Source: Candidatus Saccharimonadota bacterium
GTDB taxonomy: Bacteria > Patescibacteriota > Saccharimonadia > Saccharimonadales > Saccharimonadaceae
Direction: 5' to 3'
DNA length: 64,000 nt
NCBI GenBank assembly: GCA_028286285.1
Contig: JAQBRV010000001.1
Location: 124,001 to 188,000, forward strand
The translations under genes were made by a program, and so were the position numbers. How positions within the stretch are numbered: position 1 is the first letter of the stretch; each line of letters starts with the position of its first letter. The notes below the pieces were generated by a model. It was not told the DNA's origin, ran no database searches, and was given only the letters and a program-made list of their open reading frames with translations. Positions 59,710 through 62,486 of this stretch are shown one piece after another.

Positions 59710-61446
59710 ATGAACGTCATGCGGAAGTGGTTCCAGCGGTTAAAACGTTGGGTGGGGAGATATAGGCGTCAGCTCAGGATAGCTGGCGGCGTTGTTGTTG
59801 GCGTGCTGATGACGATGCAGTTATTCTATCCGACAGATCAGATGTTGCCCTTTGCGACCGTCGATAATCTCGCCGTGAGTGGCTGGCAAAAGCAGGACAC
59901 CGCTTGGCAGCTCGACCAGGCCTACAAACAGCAGCCGATCCAGCTTTATTTTGGTAGCAACACCGATACGAAGTATGTTTTGAAACCGGCTGACATTGGC
60001 CTAATGAGTCGTAACGGCAATCGGGTGGAAGCGATAAGCTACCCCTGGTATATGCGGCTCATTCCTACCTCGGTGTTCTGGTATGGGCGCCTGCAGTCGG
60101 ATGGTGCGCCGACGTACAGTCGTCAGGCGAGTGTCCTCGATACCTACATGAAAAAGCAGCTCGGCGAATCGTGTAGTATTGCGCCTGTCGATGCTTCACT
60201 CAAGGCAAAAGAATCAAATTTAGTGGTGGTGTCGGGAAGCAATGGTGGTACCTGTAAACCGAGTGATGTATCGGCGGAGCTTAAGAAGCTGACGCCGATG
60301 ATCACCAAGAAGACGCAGGTACGGATCGCGATGAAAGAAACGCCGCCGACGATTGGTGACAAAGAAGCGAATGCATTGGCTGACTTAATTAATAGACAAC
60401 TGAAAGCTGGCGTGGTGATCATGGCCGGAACCCTGGCAGTAAAACCAGACAGCAAGCTGGTGGCGGGCTGGCTTGACGCTAAGGTAGTGGGCAGTAAGCT
60501 AACGGTAGAAATGAATGCGACGAGGGCAGGTGAGTATCTCGGTAAAGAAGTAGCTCCGAAGGTCGCGGTCGCGGCTGGCGTTACAAAAGTAGCCACAGTT
60601 GATTTCCAGGAAGTCTCGCGTCAAACAGGTGCGAATGGCCAGGCGCTCGATGTGGTCGGTACGGGTACTGCACTCATTAACTATCTAACCGCCAAAGACA
60701 AAACGGTGACGGCTGTCGTGGGCTCCGTGGCGCCACGGGTAGAATATACTCGGTCGTATAGCCCGACTGACACTGGCCTGTCGGCGTTAATGACCAATTA
60801 CGCCAAAGATCATCCCGGTACGTTCGGGATGCAGTTGATTGAACTCTCGGGTAAACGCCGTCGCGCCGCCTACAATGAATCAAAACAATTTGTCACAGCC
60901 AGTACGTACAAGTTATTTGTGGCGTATGGCACGCTCAAGAAAATCGAAGCGGGTGAATGGCAGTGGTCAAATCCGTCAGCTGGGGGAAGAGATACGGCTG
61001 CTTGTTTCGACGACATGATCGTTAAGTCTGACAATGCCTGCGCCGAGGCGCTGCTGGAACGCTATGGCTACAACAACCTCACGCGCGACATCCGAGCGCT
61101 CGGCCTCAGTAGCGACTCGGGCTTCATTGGCGATACACCCAAGTCTACCGCGGCTGACCTGGCTCTCTTTATGGCGATGCTTGAGTCGGGGCAAATGCCC
61201 ATCCAGCCAGCTAATCGTGATCGTTTCCTCGGTGCTCTAAAACGAAATATATATCGCCAAGGGATCCCGGCTGGTGCTAGTGGGGCAGTCGCCGACAAAG
61301 TCGGCTTCTTGAATGGACTCTTCCACGATGCGGCCATTGTGTACAGCCCGAGCGGAACCTATGTGTTAGTGATCATGACCGACGGGAGTAGCTGGGCGAA
61401 TATTGCCGAGCTAACCAAGCAAATCGAAGCCTTGCGCAGCCAGTAA
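59710..61446 (+). CDS. Membrane-anchored class A beta-lactamase-like serine hydrolase
   Basis: Protein of 578 residues. A basic N-terminus (KWFQRLKRWVGRYRRQ) and one helix (about 24-42) anchor it. Residues about 50-340 hold two copies of a YoaR/PG-binding-like module (ALADLINRQLKAGVVIMAG in the second). Residues about 355-578 are the beta-lactamase2/transpeptidase-like domain: S398-T-Y-K401, S440-D-N442, and K530-V-G in place of the KTG triad. This may be a D,D-carboxypeptidase acting on peptidoglycan or a true beta-lactamase; sequence alone does not decide. It is oriented outward and could protect or trim the wall. Confidence 0.85.
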   Translation: MNVMRKWFQRLKRWVGRYRRQLRIAGGVVVGVLMTMQLFYPTDQMLPFATVDNLAVSGWQKQDTAWQLDQAYKQQPIQLYFGSNTDTKYVLKPADIGLMSRNGNRVEAISYPWYMRLIPTSVFWYGRLQSDGAPTYSRQASVLDTYMKKQLGESCSIAPVDASLKAKESNLVVVSGSNGGTCKPSDVSAELKKLTPMITKKTQVRIAMKETPPTIGDKEANALADLINRQLKAGVVIMAGTLAVKPDSKLVAGWLDAKVVGSKLTVEMNATRAGEYLGKEVAPKVAVAAGVTKVATVDFQEVSRQTGANGQALDVVGTGTALINYLTAKDKTVTAVVGSVAPRVEYTRSYSPTDTGLSALMTNYAKDHPGTFGMQLIELSGKRRRAAYNESKQFVTASTYKLFVAYGTLKKIEAGEWQWSNPSAGGRDTAACFDDMIVKSDNACAEALLERYGYNNLTRDIRALGLSSDSGFIGDTPKSTAADLALFMAMLESGQMPIQPANRDRFLGALKRNIYRQGIPAGASGAVADKVGFLNGLFHDAAIVYSPSGTYVLVIMTDGSSWANIAELTKQIEALRSQ

Positions 61447-61494: not shown

Positions 61495-61569
61495 TCCGGC
61501 ATAGCTCAGTGGTAGAGCGGATCGCTGTTAACGATTAGGTCGCTGGTTCGAGCCCAGCTGCCGGAGCCA
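61495..61569 (+). tRNA. tRNA-Asn (anticodon GTT)
   Basis: A complete cloverleaf: acceptor TCCGGCA/TGCCGGA (61495-61501 with 61559-61565), D arm GCTC/GAGC, anticodon stem GATCG/CGATT with loop CTGTTAA and anticodon GTT at 61527-61529, variable AGGTC, T arm GCTGG/CCAGC with loop TTCGAGC, discriminator G and encoded CCA at 61567-61569. A near-consensus promoter precedes it and a terminator follows. Confidence 0.97.
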
Positions 61570-61577
61570 TGAAAAAT

Positions 61578-61603
61578 GATTCACCATTTGGTGGATCTTT
61601 TTT
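61578..61603 (+). terminator. Terminator after tRNA-Asn
   Basis: An 8-bp stem, GATTCACC with GGTGGATC (one G-T pair), an ATTT loop and a following T6 run, 8 bases after the tRNA CCA. Confidence 0.8.
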
Positions 61604-61624
61604 CATATTTCGGGATTTGGATTT

Positions 61625-61710
61625 GAATCAGCGACTCATCAGCTTGCCTGATGGTAGTCGCTGGTTCGGTGAGTGCAGCGAAATTCTGGAAAAGTTTACT
61701 TTTACCAGAA
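61625..61710 (+). repeat. Two strong hairpins between the tRNA and its 3' duplication
   Basis: Hairpin one: GAATCAGCGACT and CATCAG (61625-61642) pair with CTGATG and AGTCGCTGGTTC (61648-61667), an 18-bp stem with a 2-base bulge and a 5-base loop. Hairpin two: TTCTGGAAAAG (61684-61694) pairs with CTTTT-A-CCAGAA (61699-61710), with a TTTA loop. The right arm of hairpin one includes 12 bases identical to the tRNA T-arm region (61539-61550). No coding content is seen. Confidence 0.65.
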
Positions 61711-61752
61711 TGAGCCAGCGGAGGAGTAGAGCGACCCAGCTGCCGGAGCCAT
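61711..61752 (+). repeat. tRNA-Asn-derived remnant with duplicated 3' end
   Basis: CCCAGCTGCCGGAGCCAT at 61735-61752 exactly repeats the last 17 bases of the tRNA plus one (61553-61570), 182 bases away. The preceding 24 bases resemble the tRNA D-arm (TAGAGCG shared). The piece cannot fold into a tRNA because the anticodon arm is missing. It may be an attachment-site copy or a decayed duplicate. Confidence 0.75.
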
Positions 61753-61763
61753 AAGCATTCTCA

Positions 61764-61787
61764 CCTCTGTTAATTCAGAGGTTTTTT
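61764..61787 (+). terminator. Terminator after the tRNA remnant
   Basis: A 6-bp stem, CCTCTG/CAGAGG, loop TTAATT and T6. It would end any transcript that runs through the structured segment between the tRNA and the remnant. Confidence 0.8.
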
Positions 61788-61805
61788 GTATGGCAGGGTA
61801 TAGAG

Positions 61806-61811
61806 TATACT
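61806..61811 (+). promoter_or_regulatory. -10 element (TATACT) for the pilin gene
   Basis: TATACT ends 10 bases before the pilin ATG at 61822, with no ribosome binding site between. Confidence 0.5.
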
Positions 61812-61821
61812 TGTAAGTGAT

Positions 61822-62403
61822 ATGTGGGCTAAACACAAACAATCCGACAAACAATCCGGCTTTACGATCGTCGAACTTCTTATTGTTATTGTGGTGATCG
61901 GTATTCTTGCTGCTATAGTCATTGTGGCGTACAACGGAATACAAGGCAGGGCACGAGACTCACGGCGTACAAATGATGCAGCAAGTATTATAAAAGCCCT
62001 AGAGTTATATAGGATTGACTATGGTCAATACCCCGCATCTAACGGAAGTAGTACCCCGGGTGTCAATGTTCCTCCAGGATATCCTGGCGTAAGCTCGTTA
62101 TATAGTTATAGCTATGCAACAGACAGCTCGTGGTTGTATTATCTGGTTGCAGCGGGGTATCTTAAGACGGCTCCCAAGGATCCTGTCAACAGTCCGACAC
62201 AATATTATATATACCGAGCTTTTAATACTGGAATTGGTGTGGAATGTCCGGATCCGGCGTATGCGCTGCGTATGACAGCCTATGACTTGGCAGCAGATGT
62301 ACCGACAAACCTTACGACAGCGAACTTACAGACAACTTGTCCCAGCGCCCCGGGTTGGACGACTAGCGGTGTGGCAGCAGTCTTCTCCAGTATCAAGAAC
62401 TAG
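61822..62403 (+). CDS. Type IV pilin-like protein
   Basis: Protein of 193 residues. A short leader (MWAKHKQSDKQSG) is followed by FTIVELLIVIVVIGILAAIV, the prepilin cleavage and N-methylation signature with Glu at position 5 after the cut between Gly and Phe. The globular C-domain (about 40-193) has two cysteines (VECPDP, QTTCPSA) that could form a disulfide loop. The protein needs a prepilin peptidase and a PilB/PilC-type assembly machine, none of which is in the window. It could serve twitching, attachment or DNA uptake. A strong terminator follows it. Confidence 0.92.
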   Translation: MWAKHKQSDKQSGFTIVELLIVIVVIGILAAIVIVAYNGIQGRARDSRRTNDAASIIKALELYRIDYGQYPASNGSSTPGVNVPPGYPGVSSLYSYSYATDSSWLYYLVAAGYLKTAPKDPVNSPTQYYIYRAFNTGIGVECPDPAYALRMTAYDLAADVPTNLTTANLQTTCPSAPGWTTSGVAAVFSSIKN

Positions 62404-62486
62404 CTATAGGAATAGTTTGTTGCGAAGTACGCACACTAAGGAAGCCAAAATGATTATACTTAAAGACTTCTAGAACAAATCAAAAA

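Follow-up and report, generated by a model that had tools for sequence, protein, structure and literature searches.

The tRNA-Asn Locus

The window is a stretch of 64,000 nucleotides from a Candidatus Saccharimonadota bacterium (genome G000); unless another source is named, all coordinates refer to it. An intact tRNA-Asn gene is followed by a terminator, a hairpin-rich segment, a second terminator, and a gene for a type IV prepilin-like protein (Table 1). Between a LexA-like gene and the tRNA lies a gene for a beta-lactamase-family serine hydrolase (59710-61446), which is apparently missing from this position in a syntenic genome (G029).

Table 1. Features of the tRNA-Asn locus and the basis of their assignment.
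Feature	Position	Strand	Basis
tRNA-Asn(GUU), intact, CCA encoded	61495-61569	+	ARAGORN; Rfam RF00005, 69.6 bits
tRNA 3' end, first copy (3' side of T-stem, acceptor, CCA)	61553-61570	+	Exact 18-bp direct repeat
Terminator adjoining the tRNA (stem 61578-61597)	61571-61605	+	
Degenerate inverted copy of the tRNA 3' half; best-preserved stretch GAATCAGCGAC at 61625-61635	61609-61636	-	Sequence
hp0, small palindrome separating the inverted from the direct T-stem copy	61637-61653	+	
GTCGCTGGTTCG, direct copy of variable loop, 5' side of T-stem, and TTCG	61657-61668	+	Exact 12-bp repeat
Conserved core in the place of the T-loop: left linker, hairpin hp1, linker GAGCCAGCGGAGGAGT, end GCGA	61669-61734	+	Covariance model R1
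hp1: 12-bp stem, one bulge, loop TTTA; covariation strongest here	61683-61711	+	
Displaced tRNA 3' end (3' side of T-stem, acceptor, CCA)	61735-61752	+	Exact 18-bp repeat; empty-site comparison at tRNA-Asp
Second terminator, start of the neighboring gene cassette (TAAGCATTCTCACCTCTG..)	61763-61782	+	
Type IV prepilin-like gene; cassette cargo, outside the hairpin unit	61822-62403	+	Pfam N_methyl, E 3.3e-8

The 18-bp direct repeat, CCCAGCTGCCGGAGCCAT, encloses a 164-bp segment, as an earlier note on this DNA had stated. Its two copies are exact, no further copy was present on the + strand of the window, and the displaced copy comprises the last 17 bases of tRNA-Asn plus one. A 12-mer from the T-arm region of the tRNA (61539-61550) reappears in one arm of the first hairpin. 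This hairpin (61624-61668) had a folding energy of -26.1 kcal/mol (z -4.8), and the second (hp1) had one of -11.4 kcal/mol (z -4.4); the z-score for the whole 220-nt segment was -5.8. The folding and repeats of the segment are far beyond chance. Both hairpins, the copied arm, and the two terminator-like sites had been described in the earlier note and were recovered here. What it had taken for a D-arm-like remnant (GGAGGAGTAGAGCGA) turned out to be a linker and to belong to a conserved core (GAGCMARCGGAGGAGY..GCGA) that is also present behind unrelated tRNAs. Read as a tRNA, 61657-61752 is the 3' half of tRNA-Asn in which the core replaces most of the T-loop.

The Core Family

A BLAST search with the segment returned relatives in the window's own genome, behind tRNA-His, and in other genomes, behind tRNA-Gln, tRNA-Lys, and tRNA-Arg. 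A covariance model (R1) of the ca. 66-nt core was built from six long cores only, because MAFFT aligned long cores poorly with short ones. The window's core scored 85.9 bits with R1 (E 2.3e-18 in its own genome). Matches were found in 80 of 245 genomes of the family (26 of 61 genera); at the level of the order the figure was 33 of 295, and among 333 genomes from across the phylum it was 9, five of these nine being members of the same order and four being weak matches further away. A pattern scan of GTDB genomes gave six records, four of which are named Saccharibacteria or Saccharimonadia. The richer genomes carried 2-11 R1 matches each. Several matches lay in single-contig genomes (G081, G095, G015, G094, and G035) and are therefore no assembly artefact.

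Fifty-nine distinct cores were collected. Of these, 45 begin at a distance of 80-237 nt (median 93) downstream of a same-strand tRNA; the tRNAs concerned are those for Asp, Ser, Arg, Asn, Met, Gln, Lys, Leu, His, Trp, Val, and Tyr. Four cores lie upstream of a tRNA-Ser whose 5' half is present in an additional copy, the core being in the D-loop of that copy. For the other ten, ARAGORN recognized no tRNA, in some cases because the contig ends or the tRNA is a remnant. Judged by eye, the window's genome has whole or decayed extragenic palindromic units at about a dozen tRNA loci. Copies decay, and tandem or inverted arrangements were encountered at two loci (L031 and L144). At another (L096, 1290-1640), a core, a promoter, and the 5' half of tRNA-Ser are tandemly repeated upstream of tRNA-Ser(cga). 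The segment belongs to a family of cores in Saccharimonadia that is found at most kinds of tRNA; the earlier note's proposal to look for the same unit at other tRNA genes was borne out at many isotypes and genera.

Relation of Flanks and Core to the Local tRNA

The 5' side of the T-stem precedes the core, and the 3' side with the acceptor follows it; both copy the local tRNA. Among 45 units, the flank after the core matched the T-stem 3' side and acceptor of the adjacent tRNA at 0.8 or better in 56%, compared with 0.2% for other tRNAs as controls. The flank before the core matched the variable loop and T-stem 5' side at this level in 49% (control, 1.5%), and the inverted arm matched the reverse complement of that sequence in 29% (control, 1.8%). 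All three contrasts had p < 1e-9. In a survey of 34 distinct tRNAs of the window's genome with their flanks, 38% were followed within 500 nt by a copy of their own 3' half, a few of these being matches into a neighboring tRNA; the rates were 2.2% in the downstream regions of other tRNAs and 3% upstream.

The core behaves differently from its flanks. Its identity between genera was 0.603 at the same tRNA and 0.602 at different tRNAs, and the nearest core in another genome was located at the tRNA of a different amino acid in 34 of 45 cases; tRNA-specific core lineages are not supported by these values. The remaining 11 cases are a mild excess over the 5.3 expected (p 0.025), which shows that some copies are inherited at one tRNA. 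The core tracks tRNA identity only weakly. One tRNA-Ser (L077) has a core in an upstream D-loop copy and another in a downstream T-loop copy. These two 79-nt cores are identical at 69 of 79 positions, and both end in GCGATA; the upstream one is flanked by D-arm sequence, the downstream one by T-arm sequence. Such near-alike cores in copies of different loops are the clearest sign that the moving piece would be the core and not a part of the tRNA.

Occupied and Empty Sites

The tRNA-Asp locus was compared in 24 genomes of one genus, in which the unit was present, absent, or replaced by genes. It was carried by G124, G197, G232, G185, G203, G209, and G147; in G103 and G250 the locus consists of the tRNA, a terminator, and the next gene only. 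The comparison of empty sites called for in the earlier note was afforded by G163 (empty) and G185 (occupied), which share the same downstream gene. When the unit is removed from G185, its flanks align with G163 without a gap, from the tRNA through the displaced 3' end and into the native terminator. The two tRNA-end copies of G185 are 177 bp apart; the displaced one has retained the original terminator and gene, and the tRNA-proximal terminator resembles the native one.

The G029 genome has the same gene order as the window upstream of the tRNA-Asn (sugar transferase, O-antigen gene, LexA-like gene), a near-identical terminator behind that tRNA, and no hairpin unit there. That this is a direct empty site of the window's locus is suggestive only. 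The segment is not conserved everywhere beside its tRNA, the outcome that the earlier note had set against its own reading; presence varies, and empty sites exist.

Of the three readings offered in that note, a tiny tRNA-targeting mobile unit is the best supported, given the many isotypes and genera, the presence and absence at the level of species, and the empty/occupied pair. An attachment site left by a lost element fares less well, the core being a conserved, covarying structure and not a scar. A structured RNA made from a collapsed tRNA duplicate is right in part: duplicated tRNA halves are present, yet the core that they enclose has no tRNA origin.

Covariation and Folding of the Core

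All 12 of the 12 pairs in hp1 vary on both sides, i.e. they covary. Paired states filled 98.5% of the alignment cells, versus 70% after shuffling and 43-52% in slid controls. The 59 cores contained 27 G-U pairs and one A-C pair. Because a duplex binding site would treat these two kinds of pair alike, the excess of G-U indicates that a single strand, that of tRNA sense, folds. The substitutions point firmly to selection on this fold, with which RNA and single-stranded DNA are alike compatible. We lean toward single-stranded DNA as the folding molecule, since a terminator stands between the tRNA and the core and no promoter-like site was found inside the segment. A second short hairpin (stem of at least 4) follows hp1 in 28 of the 59 units and is not an inverted copy of hp1. 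The inverted arm fitted the direct copy no better than it fitted the tRNA, and that helix had no sign of selection; conserved pairing of arm and copy after divergence from the tRNA is thus not supported.

A structured RNA in the tRNA 3' trailer would also call for such a fold. Readthrough transcripts would form it, and the tRNA copies would serve as decoy or antisense sequences that tune the maturation or decay of the neighboring tRNA. The covariation, the G-U bias, the constant distance of ca. 93 nt from the tRNA, and the sequences complementary to the local tRNA are all consistent with this role. It accords poorly with the terminator ahead of the core, the lack of an internal promoter-like site, the many species without the unit at the same tRNA, the decayed, tandem, or inverted copies, and the copies located upstream of tRNAs. 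A trailer RNA is accordingly considered an unlikely explanation.

Searches for Enzymes and Known Families

The hairpin unit has no gene inside. The window's genome encodes one tyrosine recombinase, which is Xer-like and lies 150 kb from the unit; no other integrase was found in this genome, which disfavors an extra tyrosine integrase as a helper, and none was detected in the unit-rich genome G018 (85% complete). Y1 transposases (PF01797) gave no match in either genome, and the palindromes flanking ten Y1 loci examined in relatives differ from the unit; mobilization by a RAYT/Y1 enzyme was rejected on these grounds. A resident reverse transcriptase was likewise dismissed as a helper, as none was present in G000, G016, or G018. 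Xer, replication and repair functions, and the enzyme of a visiting element are left as candidate helpers. No circular or excised form of the unit was seen.

The Y1 transposases of Saccharimonadales (L100-L109) are RAYT-sized (ca. 200 aa), and most are flanked on both sides by short palindromes of their own, e.g. CTTGCAAGGAGCCTCCTTGCAA.

Searches with Rfam 15 covariance models returned only the tRNA itself above the gathering score, and a known RNA family was rejected accordingly. Phage, plasmid, and viral searches gave no match, and an origin from these sources was set aside. Searches of the open-access literature gave nothing fitting on tRNA-associated repeats or cassettes in Saccharibacteria.

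Neighboring Single-Gene Cassettes

The prepilin gene looks like the cargo of a single-gene cassette, whose left end is the second terminator (TAAGCATT..ACCTCTG..). Together with the copy of the tRNA-Asn 3' end, this terminator forms the left border of a region (61735-62447) whose right end, GTTGCGAAGTACGCACACTAAGGAAGCCA, is a weak att-like sequence; it scored 14 with one of six att sequences (shuffle maximum, 11), the other five being within the shuffle range. The same left end occurs at a second prepilin locus of this genome (L003, G000:C1:91175).

The same terminator repeat and an att-like motif, GTTCGAANTTCRTCCACTA, punctuate single-gene arrays elsewhere in the window's genome (contig C4) and behind the tRNA-Asn of G042, and a related repeat was found behind a tmRNA-like 3' end in G054. 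These arrays (L027, G000:C4:81,100-83,800; L024, G042:C10; L025, G054:C5) resemble integrons, with single genes in one orientation separated by an att-like repeat and a terminator. They are anchored at tRNA-Asn in G042 and at the tmRNA-like 3' end in G054, and they may represent a cassette system of Saccharibacteria that is anchored at tRNAs. In the tRNA-Asn array of G042, the first cassette is followed by a hairpin unit (L024, 5748-5960); at the tRNA-Asp of G155, a small gene has a unit scar on one side and a full unit on the other (L141, 660-1440). Units and cassettes thus share landing sites.

It is conceivable, but doubtful, that the unit is itself an integrase-type mini-island or a non-coding member of these integron-like cassettes, a tyrosine recombinase (Xer or one acting in trans) having joined an element with a spare tRNA 3' end to the tRNA gene. 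The restored tRNA with its displaced 3' end would be expected of such an island, as would the use of the same tRNA ends by cassettes with att-like repeats and the joint array in G042. However, a mini-island should be bound to one tRNA, yet the cores cross isotypes while the flanks stay local; the inverted copy would be left unexplained, and the integrase searches described above yielded nothing beyond Xer.

Interpretation

We consider it probable, if not firmly so, that the segment is a member of a family of non-autonomous mobile elements, miniature and without genes, that live in the tRNA genes of Saccharimonadia. The unit of ca. 180 bases looks like an undescribed tiny mobile element specialized on tRNA genes; its mobility, target, and architecture are well supported. 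The mobile part would be the core, of ca. 65-80 nt in intact copies, whose hairpin on the tRNA-sense strand is strongly folded. Its place is within a tRNA loop, at the conserved motif GGTTCRA of the T-loop (here TTCG, core, CGA) or, less often, at GGTTGA of the D-loop. An insertion would leave an intact tRNA and terminator, then the 3' half of the tRNA twice, first inverted and degenerate and then in direct orientation; the core would end up in the loop of the direct copy, and the old 3' end would be shifted downstream. The core probably moves as a folded single strand, more likely of DNA than of RNA, and the enzyme may act in trans. Insertion may itself duplicate the tRNA, e.g. through a template switch at hairpins, and thereby keep the tRNA intact.

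Because the terminator adjoining a tRNA may look like the native one, the tRNA end could also have been duplicated locally, without any transposition. Replication debris, in which template switching at the terminator and other hairpins produced the inverted and direct copies of the tRNA end and no mobile element was involved, would fit the direct-inverted-direct order, the palindromes at both turning points, and the native-like proximal terminator of G185, but it is very unlikely in view of a conserved, covarying core that has no tRNA origin, is common to 26 of the 61 genera of the family, and is almost identical in the D-loop and T-loop copies of one gene.

If real, miniature tRNA-gene elements would form a family of selfish or regulatory DNA whose repeated invasions of essential tRNA genes, in highly reduced epibionts, leave the function of these genes intact. 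It would offer a testable case in which the core of an element ignores tRNA identity and its borders always copy the tRNA. It would also make tRNA ends growth points for gene acquisition in Saccharibacteria, for which few mobile systems have been described. That such elements form a categorically new class, in which a folded core targets by means of tRNA-arm copies re-copied at each new tRNA gene and there is no dedicated host transposase, seems improbable; the flanks would then be guides rewritten at every move.

Comparison with Known Systems

Integrons and their attC sites share with the present system folded single-strand recombination sites and the stepwise growth of arrays, and single-gene cassettes are found here at the same tRNA ends. 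They differ in that no integron integrase was found in the window's genome, the sites of the unit are tRNA-like, and the unit has no gene; by eye, no RYYYAAC/GTTRRRY boxes were seen in the T-arm flanks.

Islander-type islands in tRNA and tmRNA genes restore the target tRNA and leave a displaced 3' fragment at the distal end (PMC4383910). The hairpin unit has both features, as seen in the repeats of the window and in the G163/G185 pair. Unlike these islands, it is shorter than 250 bp, has no integrase, and is not tied to one tRNA; it also has an inverted copy, and its displaced T-loop holds a hairpin core.

REPs, and REPINs as inverted doublets of them, are short, palindromic, non-coding, dispersed sequences that are moved by RAYT (Y1) transposases, and they are thought to move as folded single-stranded DNA with the enzyme acting in trans (PMC3116915). 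The hairpin unit is also short, palindromic, non-coding, and dispersed, and it is an extragenic palindromic repeat with many copies per genome. Its end, GGAG..hairpin..GCGATA, presumably resembles the REPs of Pseudomonas. No RAYT lies near the unit, and PF01797 is missing from the two genomes searched (G000 and G018). The hairpin unit further differs from REPs and REPINs in that it sits at tRNA genes and carries copies of the local tRNA.
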